In this document: piece after piece, positions 17,560 through 32,912 of the stretch
Layout of the letters: each line of letters opens with the position of its first letter
Position numbering within the stretch: position 1 is the first letter of the stretch
Source: a virus
DNA: 33,096 nt
Strand: one strand, 5' to 3'
IMG/VR virus record: IMGVR_UViG_3300021341_000004
Span: 1-33,096 of that record
Position numbers and translations under genes: made by a program
The notes under the pieces: generated by a model
Database searches by the model: none
What the model was told of the DNA's origin: nothing
Seen by the model: only the letters and a program-made list of their open reading frames with translations

Positions 17560-17856
17560 TCAGACCTGCTCGATGTGGACGCCGGGATGCTTGACGCTGC
17601 CCTGCGCCACATCCACGCCACCAGTGGTGAGCTTGAAGCTCCGGATGGAGGCTCGGCCCACACGGTCGGACCGCTCTTCGACGAGCTCGCACTCCACCAG
17701 GTAGGCCAGGTCGCGACCGAGCTCCTTCACGTCGTCCGCGTAGAGCGGACCCATGATGCGGTTGACCACCGCATCGTTGAGAAAGCCGGGGTACTGCTCG
17801 TAGATGGCGAGCAGGATGAGGCCGCGGCGAAGGCGGGGCTCATGAACGGTCGTCAC
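17560..17856 (-). CDS. Mu gp26 / VpaChn25_0724-like winged helix protein
   Basis: This 98-residue protein starts MTTVHEPRLRRGLILLAIYE. It contains a winged-helix core (LRRGLILLAIYEQYPGFLN, VKELGRDLAYLVECELVEE) and ends with SFKLTTGGVDVAQGSVKHPG. That ending is characteristic of the small phage protein between the DUF2730 gene and the terminase small subunit in Mu relatives. Its function in packaging or head assembly is unknown. Its ATG overlaps the upstream stop as ATGA. Confidence 0.8.
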   Translation of the reverse strand: MTTVHEPRLRRGLILLAIYEQYPGFLNDAVVNRIMGPLYADDVKELGRDLAYLVECELVEERSDRVGRASIRSFKLTTGGVDVAQGSVKHPGVHIEQV

Positions 17857-18434
17857 TGGGCACCCCAGGCTTCAGCGAGGCGTCCGAGCTGCTGATTGAC
17901 CTCGCTCACGGTCTTGTGGGTGTCGACGGCTTGCTTGTGGAGCTGGTCGACGCGCCCCGAGAGCTGACCGAGCTGGCTCTCGATGGCGGCAAAGCGCTGG
18001 TCGGACCGGTTCTGGCTGGCGCGGTGCTCCTCGCGAAGCTCCGACATGCGGTCCTTGTGGCGCCGCTCGGCAGCGTCGAGCTCGTCGCGACGGACCATCC
18101 GGTCACGCAAGTCGTCCATCATCCGCCGCATGGCAGCGAGCCCGGCCTCGCGCTCCTTTCGGTGCGCCTCAAGCGCCTCCTGGCTGGACTTCTGATGCGC
18201 CACGAGCGACTTGCCGAAACCCACAACCGCTTGCTCTTGCGTGTTCGAGCGACGCCGGGTCAGCTCAAGGAAAAGCGCACCGATACCGGTGAAGAGCACG
18301 CTGACAAAGTCCGACACCCATTCGCCCATCTCGGCGAAGCTGACGTCGGCGGCGTGGGCCGGCCGCGAGAGCATGAGCCCCGCCAGGGCCGCAATGGCGA
18401 GCATGATGGCGAGGCGCCGCAGGAAGCGGTGCAC
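17853..18434 (-). CDS. DUF2730-like membrane-anchored coiled-coil protein
   Basis: From a GTG at 18434 this encodes 193 residues. An N-terminal VHRFLRRLAIMLAIAALAGL and then SRPAHA form a good signal peptide. A second hydrophobic stretch follows near residues 42-58 (FVSVLFTGIGALFLEL), then about 130 residues of charged coiled coil. This build and the position before the gp26-like gene match DUF2730 proteins of Mu relatives, whose role is unsettled; an Rz-like spanin role is an alternative. The frame stays open to an ATG at 18575, and an ATG at 18515 has GGAG four bases ahead. I chose the GTG because it opens the signal peptide, but the start is uncertain. Confidence 0.72.
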   Translation of the reverse strand: MHRFLRRLAIMLAIAALAGLMLSRPAHAADVSFAEMGEWVSDFVSVLFTGIGALFLELTRRRSNTQEQAVVGFGKSLVAHQKSSQEALEAHRKEREAGLAAMRRMMDDLRDRMVRRDELDAAERRHKDRMSELREEHRASQNRSDQRFAAIESQLGQLSGRVDQLHKQAVDTHKTVSEVNQQLGRLAEAWGAQ

Positions 18435-18544
18435 AGGTTGGAAGGGGCTCGACCCCACGGAACTTGGAGTGCGTTCCTCTCCACGTCCACTCAGGCTGCA
18501 GGCATCCACAGGCATCCATCTCCACAACAGGTTCCGGGGGTCGA

Positions 18545-18623
18545 CCCTCAGACCATAGTGAAGATTTCTACACAACGACCTCGCAGGTGCTCGGGTTGCC
18601 TCACAGGTGTCCTGGTTGCCTCA
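18545..18623 (-). promoter_or_regulatory. Candidate late promoter with two tandem 20-bp activator-like repeats
   Basis: Reading leftward, a -10-like TATGGT lies at 18557-18552. Upstream of it (about -40 to -78) are two directly adjacent 20-bp repeats, 18584-18603 (caggtgctcgggttgcctca) and 18604-18623 (caggtgtcctggttgcctca), 17 of 20 identical. No good -35 box stands at 17 bp. A weak core with tandem upstream repeats is the usual look of an activator-dependent late promoter, such as those driven by Mor or C in Mu. The role is inferred. Confidence 0.45.
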
Positions 18624-18698
18624 CGGATGGTGCGGTTCGAGGGTTGCACCAGATGCCGCTTCGAGGTCTCTGGCGCGCTGGACCCCGACCCAGTGAGC

Positions 18699-18920
18699 GG
18701 TCCGAGACCGGGTTTCGAGCAGGGCTCGGTCGGAGCGGAACCGGGTTCCAGGGCTCGGTCCGAAACCAGGTTTCGAGCGGGGCCTCGGTCGGAGCGGAAT
18801 CGGGTTCCGGGGGCTCGGTCCGAAACCAGGTTTCGAGCGGGGCCTCGGTCGGAGCGGAACCGGGTTCCGGGGGCTCGGTCCGAAACCAGGTTTCGAGTAG
18901 GGCTCGGGACCGAAGCCGGC
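18699..18920. repeat. Tandem ~60-bp repeats carrying seven 13-bp palindromes
   Basis: Units start at 18699, 18757, 18817 and 18877 (58, 60, 60 and a partial 44 bp). Each unit holds a GAAACC-A-GGTTTC palindrome and a GGAACC-G-GGTTCC palindrome. The seven centres are 18710, 18743, 18768, 18802, 18828, 18862 and 18888, spaced alternately by about 34 and 26 bp. Five are perfect and two have one mismatch. They lie between the repressor gene and the late operon. The period is divisible by three, so frames stay open, but no credible protein is encoded. Likely protein-binding sites (operator, enhancer or silencer). Confidence 0.85.
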
Positions 18921-18929
18921 ATGGAAGGC

Positions 18930-19418
18930 CTACCGGGAGGCGGCCAGCAACCCCTCAAGGAACCCTGCCAAGCGTAGCTTCTCGGCCTCAGTGCACTTGG
19001 CGGTCACATCGTGTGCCAGGAGCATGATTCGAGCGTCGGTCGAGCTGGGGTCCGCCATCGCCGCAGCTTCAATGAGCAACCTGAGCGCTGATGACGCCTT
19101 CTCTGCCACGTCCGCCGATTGTGAACGGTTCTCCTCTGGCGTTTCGGTGAGGCCAGCGGAGGCCGCGCGCCATGGATCGGCGTCAGCCATCGGGTGCACG
19201 CCCTCCAGCACCCAGGCTCTCCGAATGCCGAACTTCTCCTCGATGACATCGAGAAAACGCTCGGTAGGACGGCGTCGTCCGCGAATGATGGCACTCACAT
19301 AGCTGGGCGAGAACTCGGCCCCCTCAACGATGTCGACCTGCCGAAGGCGAAGGAGTCGCATGGCCTCCTCAAGGCGGAGCGCCTCGGGCGTGGTCTCTTT
19401 TTTTGCTCCCAAAGTCAT
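18930..19418 (-). CDS. XRE-family phage repressor (c-like)
   Basis: This 162-residue protein starts MTLGAKKETTPEALRLEE. A helix-turn-helix of the XRE type fills residues 14-72 (LLRLRQVDIVEGAEFSPSYV, SAIIRGRRRPTERFLDVI, EEKFGIRRAWVLEGVHPM). The C-terminal half is helical and ends EAEKLRLAGFLEGLLAASR. It is the only leftward gene between the early promoter and the palindrome array. It faces the Ner-like gene across a 61-bp control region, which fits the lysogenic repressor. The ribosome site is weak. It lacks a visible LexA-type peptidase domain, so induction by RecA cleavage is unlikely. Confidence 0.85.
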   Translation of the reverse strand: MTLGAKKETTPEALRLEEAMRLLRLRQVDIVEGAEFSPSYVSAIIRGRRRPTERFLDVIEEKFGIRRAWVLEGVHPMADADPWRAASAGLTETPEENRSQSADVAEKASSALRLLIEAAAMADPSSTDARIMLLAHDVTAKCTEAEKLRLAGFLEGLLAASR

Positions 19419-19423
19419 TCTCT

Positions 19424-19457
19424 TGTTGACATTCCTCTACAAGTGTGGATATTTGTG
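19424..19457 (+). promoter_or_regulatory. Early promoter and probable operator region
   Basis: A perfect -35 TTGACA (19426-19431) is followed after 17 bp by ATATTT (19449-19454), reading toward the Ner-like gene at 19480. TTGT/ACAA half-sites at about 19424, 19438 and 19453 are spaced near 14 bp and overlap the promoter. They are candidate operators for the repressor or the Ner-like protein. An AAGGAGGG ribosome site at 19465-19472 serves the Ner-like gene. The leftward repressor promoter must lie in the same gap but shows no strong boxes. Confidence 0.7.
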
Positions 19458-19479
19458 CTCACCCAAGGAGGGCGAACAG

Positions 19480-19719
19480 ATGACTCCCCACGAAATCCGC
19501 ACGGAGCTGTTCCGGCGAAAACTCACGCAGACCGCCATCGCCGAAGAGGCAGGTGTCAGTCGGTTCACAGTCTCGCAGGTCGTTGCTGGACGGATGAGAA
19601 CGCCGGTGGTCCGACGCATCATCGCAAAGCACATCGGATTCTCCTACCGCACCGTGTGGGGCACGGATGACCCCGGAGTCGACCACTACAAGCCTGGTCG
19701 GCGGCCGGCCTCTTCGTAG
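19480..19719 (+). CDS. Ner/Cro-like helix-turn-helix regulator
   Basis: This 79-residue protein starts MTPHEIRTELFRRKLTQTAI. A single helix-turn-helix spans residues 8-55 (TQTAIAEEAGVSRFTVSQVV, then VVRRIIAKHIGFSYRTVWG). It closely resembles the small Ner/Nlp-type and DUF-HTH early regulators of Mu relatives that shut down both early and repressor transcription. It is the first gene after the early promoter and has a strong AAGGAGG site. Its tail YKPGRRPASS is basic. Confidence 0.8.
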   Translation: MTPHEIRTELFRRKLTQTAIAEEAGVSRFTVSQVVAGRMRTPVVRRIIAKHIGFSYRTVWGTDDPGVDHYKPGRRPASS

Positions 19720-19756: not shown

Positions 19757-20113
19757 ATGACCACAAAGAACAAGTCGATCTCGGACGCCAACGCCATCCT
19801 CAAGCTGCTCACCAGCAGTCACCGACAGTGGTTGTCGCTGCGTGTGATCAGCGATGAGACGGGGATCGGACGTGACCGGGCCCGTCGCCTCCTCATCAGC
19901 ATGGCCGAGATCGGATGGGTCCAGCTCCTTCCCGACAATGATGGCAATCAGTACACAATCGGGAGCGGGCTGGTGAACCTCGCCGCCTCCTGGATGAAGA
20001 ACGAAGCTGAGCGATTGAGGGAGTTCCTCGACACCTTCGGTCCCACAGCACAGGCCGCCTCGGCTTTCGCGACCGCCTCGAGCGCAGTTCACTCGCGGGG
20101 AACACCCCCATGA
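19757..20113 (+). CDS. Winged-helix DNA-binding protein, early operon
   Basis: This 118-residue protein starts MTTKNKSISDANAILKLL. Residues 10-70 form a winged helix (LTSSHRQWLSLRVISDETGI, GRDRARRLLISMAEIGWVQL, then the wing LPDNDGNQYTIGSG). An amphipathic helix NLAASWMKNEAERLREFL follows. No clear ribosome site precedes the ATG; an upstream in-frame ATG at 19667 would overlap the Ner-like gene. A role as a transcription regulator, possibly the missing middle or late activator, is only a guess. Confidence 0.65.
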   Translation: MTTKNKSISDANAILKLLTSSHRQWLSLRVISDETGIGRDRARRLLISMAEIGWVQLLPDNDGNQYTIGSGLVNLAASWMKNEAERLREFLDTFGPTAQAASAFATASSAVHSRGTPP

Positions 20114-21567: not shown

Positions 21568-23280
21568 ATGTCTTCTACCATCGACCCCATCGACCAGTGC
21601 ATCGCTGACTGGACCCGCGCGGCGACCTCCAAGGAGCGGTCGGAAGTGGTGCAGTGCACGGCCCGCCTCCTGGGCTGTACGGTGGCGACGGTCTACCGAC
21701 GGATGAGGCGGAAGGGGTGGACCTCGGGCCGCAAGAAGCGCAAGGACGCCGGCTCCACGACGCTGACTGCGACCGAGCTGGACACCCTCACCAAGCTGCA
21801 GGCCTCGGCTGTGAACAAGCGTGGGCGACCGAACCTGCCGCTCACCGAGGCGCTGCGGATGGCCCAGGAGAAGGGCCGTGTGCGTCCCGACATCAGCTAC
21901 GCGCAGGTGGCCCGTGTTGCTCGGGCGAACGGTCGTGGCCCCACCCAGCTCCGCGCCCGGGAGGCCGCTGTGGCGCGGAGCAGTACCTACCCGAACCACG
22001 TGTGGTTCGTGGACATCTCCGTCGCCCTCCAGTGGCACCTCAAGGATGGGGACGGGAAGCGCATCTCGCTGCGCGAGAACCCCGAGCTGCTCTATGAAGG
22101 CAAGCGAGAGAAGCTCGCGAGCCTGCGCGAAGTACTTCACCGCTACACGGTGGTGGACCACTGCTCGGGCGCCTTCTACGTCCAGTACTACTACTCGGCC
22201 GGCGAGAACGCCTACGACGTCGTGGACTTCTTGTGCCGGGCGATGAGCCCGAAGCGGCTTCCCGGGGGCTTCCCCTTCCGAGGCGTGCCCAAGCGCCTGG
22301 TGGTCGACCAGGGCTCCGCCTTCAAGAACTACATCGTGCGGAACCTTGCGGCGGGCCTCGGCGTGGAAGTCGAGATGCACGCGCCCACGAACGCGAAGGC
22401 ATCCGGAGCCGTCGAGACGCGCCACCGGCACTGGCAGGCCAGCTTCGAGTCTCGACTGGCACAGACCCATGTGAGCGACCTCGCAGCCCTCAACCAGGCT
22501 GCCGAGGACTTCGCAGCTGTCATCCAGGCCGAGCGCCCGCTCGTGCGAGCCCGCACCAAGAAGCCGCCCATGGAACGGTGGGTGACCATCTCCGACGACC
22601 AGCTCGTGGAGGCCCCTTCCCGCCAGGTCTTCATGCAGCTCGCTGCTGGCAAGCTCGAGGAGCGGGTGGTGGATGCCTACCTGCGCATCCGCTTCGAGAA
22701 CAGCTGGTTCGAGCTGTCCGGCGAGCAGCCCATCTGGCCCGGCCAGCGGGTGAAGGTGCAGCGCACCCCCATGCTCGAGGTGGCGGTTCGCGTGTGGGAC
22801 GAGCTCGACCGCGAGTACGCGGTCACCGAGATTTCGTTCAACGAGCACGGCTTTGCCGAGAACGGTCGCTCCCACGAGTGGGACAATGAGGAGCGAGCCG
22901 GGGCCACGGTCCCGCAGACCGCAGCCAAGAAGGCCTTCAAGGCGCACAAGGTCGCCGTCAAGGAAGGCAACCAAGCCCCCCTCGACCTCGGTGGCTTGTT
23001 CGATGACCTGTCCCGAAAGGTCGAACGCCAGGAGTACCTCCGAGCCCGCGAGGGAACGGCCTGGACACCTGCATCGTCGGCCGCCGTCGACGGCCCACCA
23101 CTCTCCTCTCTCGACGCCCGCGAACGCGTGGTGGCCCGCCTCGGCCGTGGCCTCACCCGTGAAGAGGGCCGCTGGTGGCGCGAGCGCCTCGGCGAAGGCG
23201 TCACCGAGGCTCGTCTCGACGAGCTCTACACCAAGTTCACTGCCTCTCCCGCCGCCGACCGCTCCCAGCGGACCGGCTGA
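21568..23280 (+). CDS. Mu-type DDE transposase A
   Basis: This 570-residue protein cuts and joins the phage ends. Residues 25-60 carry an HTH (CTARLLGCTVATVYRRMRRK); residues 60-130 hold a second DNA-binding part. The RNase H-fold core has D149 (VWFVDIS), D247 (LVVDQGSAF) and E283 (ASGAVETRHRHW), with the canonical 35 residues between the last two. A Mu-type beta-barrel region follows around 370-450. The C-terminus (about 450-570) should contact the B protein. No strong ribosome site precedes the ATG; a 33-bp gap separates it from the DUF3102-like gene. The end sites at 706 and 32845 are its likely substrates. Confidence 0.95.
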   Translation: MSSTIDPIDQCIADWTRAATSKERSEVVQCTARLLGCTVATVYRRMRRKGWTSGRKKRKDAGSTTLTATELDTLTKLQASAVNKRGRPNLPLTEALRMAQEKGRVRPDISYAQVARVARANGRGPTQLRAREAAVARSSTYPNHVWFVDISVALQWHLKDGDGKRISLRENPELLYEGKREKLASLREVLHRYTVVDHCSGAFYVQYYYSAGENAYDVVDFLCRAMSPKRLPGGFPFRGVPKRLVVDQGSAFKNYIVRNLAAGLGVEVEMHAPTNAKASGAVETRHRHWQASFESRLAQTHVSDLAALNQAAEDFAAVIQAERPLVRARTKKPPMERWVTISDDQLVEAPSRQVFMQLAAGKLEERVVDAYLRIRFENSWFELSGEQPIWPGQRVKVQRTPMLEVAVRVWDELDREYAVTEISFNEHGFAENGRSHEWDNEERAGATVPQTAAKKAFKAHKVAVKEGNQAPLDLGGLFDDLSRKVERQEYLRAREGTAWTPASSAAVDGPPLSSLDARERVVARLGRGLTREEGRWWRERLGEGVTEARLDELYTKFTASPAADRSQRTG

Positions 23281-26259: not shown

Positions 26260-26924
26260 GCCGTCGCAGCTTCAAGAAGCGCACCACCGCTCAGAACCGT
26301 CGCATGTGGAGCCTGGTGGGCGACCTCCAGCGCTCCGGGTTGTCTCGCGACGACGCCGAAGACGTGCTGCGGAACGCAGTCCGCGCGGTGTCTGGCCAGC
26401 CCTCCACCTCGGCGCTCTCCCGTAGCCAGGCCGCGGCCGTCATCGACCGGCTCCAGCGCCAGCTGCCTGCTCCAGCCGAAGTGGAGGCCAGCTCCCCTGA
26501 CGCCAGCGCCACGACCGCCAAGCGGAAGACCCGCCCACGCCGGACCTCGACCATCTCGGGACGCCAGCAGGAGGTGCTCCAGCGCGTCTTCGTGCAGGCG
26601 GGCATGGGCACCCAGGCTGAGCAGATGGCTTTCACTCGCCGTCAGACGGGCAAGCCCTGGCCTCAGACCCAGAAGGACTTCGACGCCATCATGGAGGCCC
26701 TGAAGAGCATGGTTCTCCGCGCTGCCAAGCCCCTCGAGGTATGGGGCCGAGTGCAGGCCTTGCTCGAGCATCCGAAGCTCGACCACTTCGAGCGGGTGTT
26801 CATCCCCGACCTGCACAAGCAGTTCCGGGATGCCCAGAAGGCGGGCACGCTCGACAAGGTGCTCACCACCGGCAAGCTGGCAAAGCTCACCGAAGCCGAG
26901 CTGCGCTGTGGGGTGACGCCATGA
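26256..26924 (+). CDS. GemA/gp16 family protein (DUF1018)
   Basis: This 222-residue protein starts MSRRSFKKRTTAQNRRMW, an ATGA overlap with the gene before. Residues 105-175 carry the Mu gp16 signature (ISGRQQEVLQRVFVQAGMGT, MAFTRRQTGKPWPQTQKDFD, AIMEALKSM). In Mu, GemA is an early protein reported to affect host gene expression and DNA supercoiling. The N-terminal 100 residues form a separate helical region with an Ala/Ser/Thr-rich linker. Confidence 0.82.
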   Translation: MSRRSFKKRTTAQNRRMWSLVGDLQRSGLSRDDAEDVLRNAVRAVSGQPSTSALSRSQAAAVIDRLQRQLPAPAEVEASSPDASATTAKRKTRPRRTSTISGRQQEVLQRVFVQAGMGTQAEQMAFTRRQTGKPWPQTQKDFDAIMEALKSMVLRAAKPLEVWGRVQALLEHPKLDHFERVFIPDLHKQFRDAQKAGTLDKVLTTGKLAKLTEAELRCGVTP

Positions 26925-27352
26925 GGCCCCACAAGGTGCGCCGCTCGGCGCTCACAGAAGCCCAGCTGCCGCTGGCCAAAGCCCACTACCTAACGGTCGC
27001 CGAGACGGCCGAGCTGTACGGGAAGTCAACCTGGTGGGTTCGCGACCAGATTGAAGCGAGGCTGCTGCCCGCGCTGCGTGTGGGGAGCCAGGTGCGGGTG
27101 GAGGCCGAGGCGGTCATTCGCGGCGCCCCCTGCGCCATCCCTCGTCTCCAGGCCCATCGCATCCGCCTCTCATGGGCTGCGCAGCACTGGCGGGTGAGCG
27201 TCAGCACGCTCCGGAGGATGGCGGCCGATGGACGCTCGCCCTTCGAGCGCCGCCCGCCTCAAGGCCACTGGGGATGCACGCGGGTGGCGTTCCGCGAGTG
27301 GGTGATGGACCACACCACCGGCGACCAGGCGGTCGAAGGCGGTGCGCAATGA
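26921..27352 (+). CDS. Double helix-turn-helix, MerR/excisionase-like protein
   Basis: This 143-residue protein starts MRPHKVRRSALTEAQLPL. Two similar HTH parts occur: residues 23-55 (YLTVAETAELYGKSTWWVRD, LPALRVGSQVRV) and residues 82-125 (LSWAAQHWRVSVSTLRRMAA, then FERRPPQGHWGCTRVAFRE). Both follow the excisionase/MerR pattern of recognition helix and short wing. A tandem of two such modules in one small protein suggests binding to direct repeats. It overlaps both neighbours by 4 bp. Confidence 0.7.
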   Translation: MRPHKVRRSALTEAQLPLAKAHYLTVAETAELYGKSTWWVRDQIEARLLPALRVGSQVRVEAEAVIRGAPCAIPRLQAHRIRLSWAAQHWRVSVSTLRRMAADGRSPFERRPPQGHWGCTRVAFREWVMDHTTGDQAVEGGAQ

Positions 27353-30744: not shown

Positions 30745-31079
30745 TGGCCCGTATCTTCGACGACACGCGGCTGGAGGTGGCTGACGTCACCGCCGACCGC
30801 GACATCCCCAACGACGCCGAGACTCCCGCCACCGCCGGCTGGGATGCCGAGGGCTGGCCGAAGGCTGCCTTGTTCCTCGAGGCCGAGAACGAGACCGACA
30901 CCTGCACGGTCCGCGCGTGGTTCTGGAACGGCCAGGCCTGGTGCAAGGGGGCCAGTGCGGAGGTGTCCGGCTCCACGGTCGTCACCATCGACACCCTCGG
31001 AAGCCGCATCTACACCCGGCTCACCAGCGTCTCGGGCACCTTCAACATCCGCTACCGCCGCATGGTTCTGGAGGACTGA
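30744..31079 (+). CDS. Small structural-type protein, unknown
   Basis: This 111-residue protein starts MARIFDDTRLEVADVTAD at a TGATG junction. Its C-terminal two thirds are beta-rich (DTCTVRAWFWNGQAWCKGAS, SGSTVVTIDTLGSRIYTRLT). The composition is that of virion or fibre proteins rather than early regulators. It is followed directly by another small beta-rich gene and the fibre-like gene, so it probably belongs to a right-end virion module. Confidence 0.6.
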   Translation: MARIFDDTRLEVADVTADRDIPNDAETPATAGWDAEGWPKAALFLEAENETDTCTVRAWFWNGQAWCKGASAEVSGSTVVTIDTLGSRIYTRLTSVSGTFNIRYRRMVLED

Positions 31080-31345
31080 TGCCCGTCCAGATCGGCGCCG
31101 TCGCGCTCGGCAGCAGCACCCCCGGCTTCAACTTCTACCAGGAGCTGGAGAGCGAGGCAGGCACCCGCGAGTACTCGCTCAACGCGGCCATCTCGTCGCA
31201 GCCTGCCCGCCTGCTCGTCTCCTACGGCGCCACCCTCCTCGTCTACGGCTCCGACCGCGACTTCGTCGTGTCCGGGGCCACCCTCACGCTCCAGTGGGAC
31301 CCCGTGGCCGTGCACCCCATCACGGTCCGCGGTGTGTCCACCTGA
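31079..31345 (+). CDS. Small beta-rich protein, possibly structural
   Basis: This 88-residue protein starts MPVQIGAVALGSSTPGFN at a TGATG junction with the gene before. Strands such as ARLLVSYGATLLVYGSDRDF and ATLTLQWDPVAVHPITVR suggest a small beta sandwich. No known domain is recognised. A strong hairpin follows ten bases after the stop, so this may close the long rightward operon. Confidence 0.6.
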   Translation: MPVQIGAVALGSSTPGFNFYQELESEAGTREYSLNAAISSQPARLLVSYGATLLVYGSDRDFVVSGATLTLQWDPVAVHPITVRGVST

Positions 31346-31355
31346 GCCCCCGCCT

Positions 31356-31375
31356 CGACGCCTGTTCGGGCGTCG
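31356..31375 (+). terminator. Hairpin after the long rightward operon
   Basis: CGACGCC (31356-31362) pairs with GGCGTCG (31369-31375) around a TGTTCG loop, followed by TT. A second small hairpin, GGCCTTCGGGCC, comes at about 31382-31393. Together they make a probable terminator or attenuator ahead of the fibre-like gene. Confidence 0.55.
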
Positions 31376-31434
31376 TTCCCCGGCCTTCGGGCCATCTCAC
31401 CCCGGCCGTTCTGGCCACCCTGGAGACTGCCACC

Positions 31435-32145
31435 ATGGCACGCACTGTTGTTCCTTCCGCCGCGATTTCGTCCGTTCCGACTTCCGCGGTCCCGACCCTC
31501 AACGCTGACAACCTCGACCTCACCGACGACTACGCCTTCACCGGCAACGTCTCGGCGGGTGGAAACGCTGTCGCCACCACTGCCGACCTCCCCACCAGCG
31601 GAGACTTCAAGAACTCGGTCGGCACTGTCGTCACGACGAACGTGAACCTCGCCAGCCCTGGGGCGCTGCTCGGCTCCGCCGGCCGCGTGGCCCTCACCGG
31701 TCAGACCGATGCCTCCCAGAACGGCATCTACGACTTCACCGATGGCGTCACCGCGCTCACCCGTTCGAGCGACGCCAACGCGGATGCTGAGGTGTCTGTC
31801 GGCATGTGCTTCTTCGCCGAAGACACCGGCGACATGTACCGCTGCACGGCCTTCGCTGGCACCCTCGACACCGACGACATCACCATCGTCGAGTTCGACG
31901 AAGAGCGGGCCTGGGTCACCGTGACCGGTGTTGCGAACGGCACGGACGCCTTCCTCGACCTCAGCCACAGCGATGTCGACACCAACACGCTGATGGTGTT
32001 CAACGGCGGCATGATGCTGACCGTTGGCGTCGGCAACGACTACACCTTCTCGGATGGTGGCGGTGCCGCCGGTGTCGACCGTGTGGCGTTCGAGTTCACG
32101 CCCGCGAACGGCTCCAACCTCAAGGCGATGTACCTCCGCATCTGA
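31435..32145 (+). CDS. Tail fibre-type protein
   Basis: This 236-residue protein starts MARTVVPSAAISSVPTSA. Residues 55-150 follow a common phage tail-fibre pattern: VVTTNVNLASPGALLGSAGR, then VALTGQTDASQNGIYDFTDG and ALTRSSDANADAEVSVGMCF. The motif of Q-T-D-A-S-Q-N-G-I-Y followed by TR-x-x-D-A is widespread in fibre and receptor-binding proteins. The C-terminus is Gly/Asp-rich and beta-type. It lies apart from the main tail genes, at the far end of the rightward side, behind a terminator. It probably needs its own late promoter, though none is clear in the 89-bp gap. Confidence 0.72.
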   Translation: MARTVVPSAAISSVPTSAVPTLNADNLDLTDDYAFTGNVSAGGNAVATTADLPTSGDFKNSVGTVVTTNVNLASPGALLGSAGRVALTGQTDASQNGIYDFTDGVTALTRSSDANADAEVSVGMCFFAEDTGDMYRCTAFAGTLDTDDITIVEFDEERAWVTVTGVANGTDAFLDLSHSDVDTNTLMVFNGGMMLTVGVGNDYTFSDGGGAAGVDRVAFEFTPANGSNLKAMYLRI

Positions 32146-32150
32146 GCTGA

Positions 32151-32208
32151 CTCGGGACCTGGTCCCGAGCTCGGCGCTCACCCCGGGCAGCTTCGGCTGC
32201 TCGGGGTG
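32151..32208 (+). terminator. Two strong hairpins after the fibre gene
   Basis: The first hairpin, 32151-32169, pairs CTCGGGAC with GTCCCGAG. The second, 32179-32208, pairs CACCCCGGGCAGC with GCTGCTCGGGGTG around TTCG and is followed by TTTC. The second is a good intrinsic terminator with a stable UUCG tetraloop and ends the rightward transcription. Between 32209 and 32340 I see no gene. Confidence 0.75.
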
Positions 32209-32845: not shown

Positions 32846-32912
32846 CCAAGGCCGGGAGGGGGGCGATTTGAGGGGCCCGAGCCAAGGCCGGGAGGGGGGC
32901 GAATCGAGGGGC
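32846..32912. repeat. Host 36-bp tandem repeat array, right part, with target duplication
   Basis: CCAAGG at 32846-32851 duplicates 700-705. Unit 3 is 32850-32885 (GATTTG type) and a partial unit 4 is 32886-32912 (GAATCG type). With the phage removed the array reads GAATCG, GATTTG, GATTTG, GAATCG in perfect 36-bp register. Beyond 32912 the sequence diverges. Confidence 0.9.

Follow-up and report, generated by a model that had tools for sequence, protein, structure and literature searches.

Seven palindromes in a 60-bp tandem repeat between the repressor gene and the late operon of a Mu/B3-like transposable phage: a candidate regulatory array

The viral sequence analysed here, hereafter the window, is IMG/VR virus record IMGVR_UViG_3300021341_000004 (33,096 bases, 67.8% G+C), which judging from its gene content and order is a temperate Mu/B3-like transposable phage with divergent early and late operons and the repressor on the late side. 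Our study deals with an array of short palindromes located in some 500 bp without any credible gene, which follow the 3' end of the repressor gene and precede the late operon, transcribed leftward; a preliminary description of this DNA was right in placing it in the control region of a temperate transposable phage, adjoining the repressor gene and ahead of the late genes. The array begins 33 bp beyond the stop codon of the repressor gene (18930-19418, minus strand), whose product was classified as an Xre-type phage repressor (HTH_3 above cutoff, phage repressor PHROGs, 30% identity to the repressor of the relative G001 introduced below). On its other side, about 265 bp separate it from the likely start codon of the first late gene, for which GTG at 18432 or ATG at 18404 is favoured over TTG at 18575; leftward from the array this gene is followed by terS, terL and a Mu-type portal gene. 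Beyond the repressor, the early operon runs on the plus strand and encodes a Ner-like protein, an IclR-type winged helix-turn-helix (wHTH) protein, a coiled-coil protein, transposase A, the B protein, Gam, GemA and an HTH_17 protein.

The array is real and unusual. Although the palindromes of the preliminary description are indeed present, they belong to a tandem repeat with a unit of 60 bp, which Tandem Repeats Finder delimits to positions 18698-18897 (period 60, 3.4 copies, 94% matches, score 351) rather than to the 18699-18920 given earlier. Each unit carries one palindrome A (GAAACC-N-GGTTTC) and one palindrome B (GGAACC-N-GGTTCC), both of 6-1-6 design, and seven 13-bp dyads, five of them perfect, were located with the two types alternating as previously described. 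From left to right these are A1 (GAGACCGGGTTTC, 18704-18716), with one mismatched pair (GAGACC/GGTTTC); B1 (GGAACCGGGTTCC, 18737-18749) and A2 (GAAACCAGGTTTC, 18762-18774), both perfect; B2 (GGAATCGGGTTCC, 18796-18808), also with one mismatched pair (GGAATC/GGTTCC); and the perfect A3 (GAAACCAGGTTTC, 18822-18834), B3 (GGAACCGGGTTCC, 18856-18868) and A4 (GAAACCAGGTTTC, 18882-18894). Their centres fall at 18710, 18743, 18768, 18802, 18828, 18862 and 18888, i.e. in steps of 33, 25, 34, 26, 34 and 26 bp, and the 34/26-bp spacing claimed before holds for the later periods but not for the first (33/25). The two middle units are 98% identical, being one base apart, and the edge units are decayed. The 60-bp unit is itself made of two diverged 30-bp halves, the alignment score of A against B being equalled by 1 in 20000 shuffles.

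In 200 dinucleotide shuffles of the window, no more than 3 such palindromes occurred per 220 bp, whereas the array has 5 that are perfect. Shuffling the 60-bp unit gave two such palindromes in only 0.023% of cases, and therefore the palindromy of the array is not a mere by-product of duplication. Furthermore, the change that distinguishes A from B in one arm is mirrored in the other (G-A-A/T-T-C to G-G-A/T-C-C), so that symmetry was preserved during their divergence. Allowing up to 2 mismatches, the A motif has no copy elsewhere in the 33,096-nt window, and the B motif has one further copy, at 32154, which is within chance. This chance-level match falls in a perfect 9-1-9 palindrome (CTCGGGACCTGGTCCCGAG, 32151-32169) situated directly past the stop codon of the gene at 30844-32145. 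An array of clustered regularly interspaced short palindromic repeats was rejected as an explanation, given that the entire 60-bp unit repeats at 94-98%, with no unrelated spacers between identical repeats. A coding explanation was also discarded: since 60 is divisible by three, open reading frames run through the array, and those that cross it match no family.

Among the relatives of the phage and the roughly 80 B3-like loci that were fetched, the array was found in this phage only. Its DNA gave no match in phage records and only short chance matches (E ~0.7) in plasmid records. Single-protein scans of IMG/VR retrieved no close relative of the phage; one syntenic near relative, G001 (IMGVR_UViG_3300031631_000687; locus L103), was found by transposase alignment, and further scans with alignments of the window and G001 yielded no second one. 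The two phages coincide in gene order and transcription directions, with identities of 42% for the transposase, 47% for TerL, 53% for the B protein, 47% for the Ner-like protein and 56% for the portal. However, where the window has the array, G001 has a three-gene Lamassu defence set, LmuA-LmuC-LmuB (L103:3678-7080), and no array; in this B3-like phage, then, a complete Lamassu set separates the repressor from the late genes. RNA-seq of the B3-like phage Fc02 has placed in this same slot an accessory gene, e4, which some relatives lack and which in the lysogen shares a transcript with the repressor gene, this lysogenic transcript spanning repc-e4 and excluding the late genes (PMC9936078). Given the Lamassu set of G001 and the variable e4 of Fc02, the array sits in an accessory slot. 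According to PMC12904381, citing Robins et al. 2024, Lamassu-type systems sense viral palindromic or hairpin DNA; that the nearest relative carries Lamassu where the window carries palindromes is a coincidence to which we give no weight. A host search in 396 Actinomycetota genomes was empty, a result that shows little.

The pattern of paired palindromes was also sought in other genomes. Five unrelated matches were obtained in viral contigs, including terminator-like hairpins of the form GGAACC-S-GGTTCCGGTTTTT in L090/L091, and five more, equally unrelated, in bacterial genomes, where those of L095 and L096 are intergenic and that of L099 lies inside a gene. Seven TAGCCGAWTCGGCTA-type palindromes at L079:6138-6308, mostly in 24-bp steps, were rejected as a match on account of their location within a replication-initiator-like gene, and are probably an origin-type array. 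An uncultured Chloroflexi genome (L097, L098) contains many interspersed GGGGAAACCSGGTTTCCCC-type palindromes resembling repetitive extragenic palindromes.

Among the DNA-binding proteins of the phage, the best candidate binder of the array is the product of the IclR-type gene of the early operon (19757-20113, plus strand), which matches PF09339 above the cutoff. Its AlphaFold model (predicted local distance difference test score, pLDDT, 87) consists of a winged helix followed by a long C-terminal helix that is predicted to be fit for dimerising, and its top Foldseek matches are the IclR-family regulators TtgV, PcaR and HmgR. A short IclR-type wHTH protein encoded upstream of the transposase is nearly universal among the B3-like loci, and 55 of the 59 homologues from these loci match the IclR helix-turn-helix. 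We found no account of the role of this gene in B3-like phages. Group 2 operators of the IclR family have the consensus TGRAACA-N1-2-TGTTYCA, and tandem IclR-family sites tend to lie 18-22 bp apart, which is a common, not universal, trend (PMC8222616). The array sites, CGRAACC-N-GGTTYCG, agree with this consensus at 5 of 6 half-site bases, sharing the GRAAC/GTTYC core, and the difference between A and B falls exactly on its degenerate R/Y position.

Palindromy beyond what duplication and composition would give, symmetry kept through sequence change, location in control DNA and the match to the IclR consensus together lead us to read the array as a set of duplicated operators. Our preferred, albeit tentative, interpretation is that it constitutes a phage-specific cis-regulatory element recognised by a dimeric phage DNA-binding protein, most likely the IclR-type one, and acting on late or lysogeny transcription. 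The array, its position and uniqueness, and the IclR-type gene with its predicted fold are the observed part of this proposal. Tandem duplication of the 60-bp unit would have filled the accessory slot that separates the repressor from the late operon with consecutive dyad operators; the dimeric protein, presumably the early-operon winged-helix regulator, would occupy the dyads, and once bound it might hold down or tune leftward transcription into the late operon, perhaps also affecting the end of the repressor transcript. Regulation of the late genes by the array, as already envisaged in the preliminary description, stays as the leading interpretation. The analogy to the Mu enhancer drawn there is not supported.

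Several observations weigh against this interpretation. None of the other B3-like loci was found to have a similar array of palindromes on its late side, so that the conservation in related phages by which the earlier proposal was to be judged is lacking both there and in G001. The other B3-like loci show no enrichment of the IclR group 2 motif either (6 matches versus 8 expected), and unrelated genomes contain GRAACC-N-GGTTYC pairs without any evident IclR-family gene nearby. The identity of the IclR-type protein to its closest relative is no more than 27%, because of which no binding specificity can be carried over to it. As for the sites themselves, the innermost half-site base is C instead of the A of the consensus, the outer base differs too, and the steps of 25-26 and 33-34 bp depart from the 18-22 bp that tandem IclR sites typically show. 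Finally, the match to the consensus was noticed only after the motif was known.

The same features can be accommodated by a functionless minisatellite grown in a tolerant non-coding accessory slot, in which hairpins would promote slippage and quasi-palindrome correction would keep the arms symmetrical. Central copies 98% identical between degenerate edges are what a recently expanded array should look like, the slot is variable (Lamassu in G001; e4 in only some B3-like phages, PMC9936078), the array is conserved nowhere among the sequences searched, and similar palindromes recur between genes of unrelated genomes. This explanation has to face, however, the rarity of units with two palindromes among the shuffled sequences. 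Phages, moreover, rarely retain a useless 200 bp beside a control gene, and on balance we regard a functionless repeat as somewhat unlikely. The array might otherwise work as RNA, its transcribed hairpins ending the leftward repressor transcript, shielding its 3' end or insulating it from the late operon. The short distance from the repressor stop codon (33 bp) suits such a role, as do the annotated terminator that the B3-like phage Bhz63 has at this point, where the window lacks an ordinary one, and the confinement of the Fc02 lysogenic transcript to repc-e4, without the late genes (PMC9936078). Both strands also fold better than shuffled sequences (z-scores of -3.6 for the plus and -2.8 for the minus strand), but it is the repressor-sense strand that has the weaker fold, and the imperfect dyads both stay paired, as G-U, only on the strand opposite to the repressor transcript, which argues weakly against a role in that transcript. 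Single-stranded DNA folding gave a z-score of -4.8, at least as strong as that of RNA, and therefore the fold signal reflects symmetry rather than RNA. There is no T-run: no intrinsic terminator (hairpin plus T-run) was detected on either strand of 18300-18929, and no Rfam family came near threshold (best 20.9 bits versus a cutoff of 50). A role as transcribed hairpins is unlikely and ranks behind the functionless repeat, but both are still serious rivals of the operator interpretation.

The Mu enhancer, or internal activation sequence, is situated between c and ner, in the operator region, and the proximity of the array to the repressor gene of a transposable phage invites the idea of a repressor-bound operator array or a Mu-type transposition enhancer. 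The position is nevertheless the wrong one, since the array (18698-18897) is downstream of the repressor gene and not between it and ner. The 19419-19479 gap between these two genes, with an early promoter-like TTGACA-16-GATATT at 19426-19453, is where the repressor must act and holds no copy of the motif, which makes the repressor a poor candidate binder. In G001 this gap has GTCT-N5-AGAC pairs instead, and that phage possesses homologous transposition genes and no array. Furthermore, the alignment of the window transposase to its PHROG profile (696 positions) begins only at position 148, and in sequence searches this protein showed no Mu N-terminal DNA-binding Pfam domain. An enhancer or repressor-operator function is accordingly very improbable. 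The G001 gap deserves mention on its own account, as its two GTCT-N5-AGAC dyads (L103:7698-7735), some 19 bp apart, are likely G001 operators. Multiple evenly spaced dyads are also reminiscent of a partition or centromere-like site, or of a packaging or synapsis site, and the IclR-type protein bears a weak fold similarity to the centromere-binding wHTH proteins AspA and that of pNOB8 (Foldseek ranks 43 and 49). Apart from this likeness, nothing positive speaks for the partition-like site suggested earlier: no ParA/ParM-type gene was recognised among the open reading frames scanned, a transposable prophage, being integrated, has no need of a partition site, and the array is not conserved. We hold this last possibility to be extremely improbable.

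The Ner-like helix-turn-helix protein is the first product of the early operon (19480-19719, plus strand; PHROG 769; 47% to G001), with the ATG preceded by AGGAGG chosen as start. Transposase A (570 amino acids; 21568-23280, plus strand) belongs to PHROG 310 (E 1.7e-46; 42% to G001) and the B protein to PHROG 296, identities to B3-like phages in tblastn being about 30%. Directly after the GemA homologue, a gene at 26741-27352 (plus strand; counterpart L103:14769-15140) encodes a protein with HTH_17 (AlpA/MerR-like) domains at the place where PM105 has the late activator Mor, and it may be a candidate late activator replacing Mor. On the way from the array to the first late gene there are three imperfect 20-bp direct repeats (18579-18638), of two helical turns each, which are better placed than the array as possible late activator sites. 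The first late gene (17853-18432, minus strand) encodes a membrane segment and a coiled coil, and a protein of similar appearance by eye occupies the same position in G001 (L103:2917-3588). Near both contig ends, a 36-bp G-rich repeat is present in about two copies each and in the same orientation (631-705 and 32846-32912); these might be repeats of flanking host DNA or end sites of the phage.

It is tempting to go one step further and to speculate that the IclR-type core gene is a late-gene regulator whose sites have been amplified here into a seven-dyad array silencing or timing the late operon. As a whole this bolder proposition is rather improbable, but if true it would add a layer of control absent from Mu. 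Binding of the array by the IclR-type protein would give a first site and a testable role to a gene found beside the transposase in nearly all B3-like loci fetched. Conversely, if nothing binds it, the array marks a variable slot that is filled by Lamassu in the nearest relative.

Comparison with known systems sets the array apart in each case. Operators of group 2 of the IclR family (IclR, KdgR, AllR type) share with it the GRAAC/GTTYC dyad, here with a single central base, but the array differs in its inner C/G instead of A/T, its 25/34-bp spacing and its seven sites, and the phage protein, unlike those regulators, has no effector domain. The B3-like phages (the beetreviruses B3, PM105, Fc02 and H71, and Stenotrophomonas phage Bhz63) have the same split layout as the window, with ner-like, IclR-type, coiled-coil, transposase A and B and GemA genes pointing one way and the repressor followed by terminase and portal genes the other, and in them too a variable slot separates the repressor from the late operon. 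That slot, in contrast, holds no palindrome array in these phages, to which the window transposase is about 30% identical. The Mu enhancer resembles the array in being control DNA with several sites close to the repressor gene of a transposable phage; the array, however, lies beyond the 3' end of the repressor gene and its motif is not shared with the repressor/ner gap. Whether or not a protein binds it, the array separates the control region of this phage from the Mu model.
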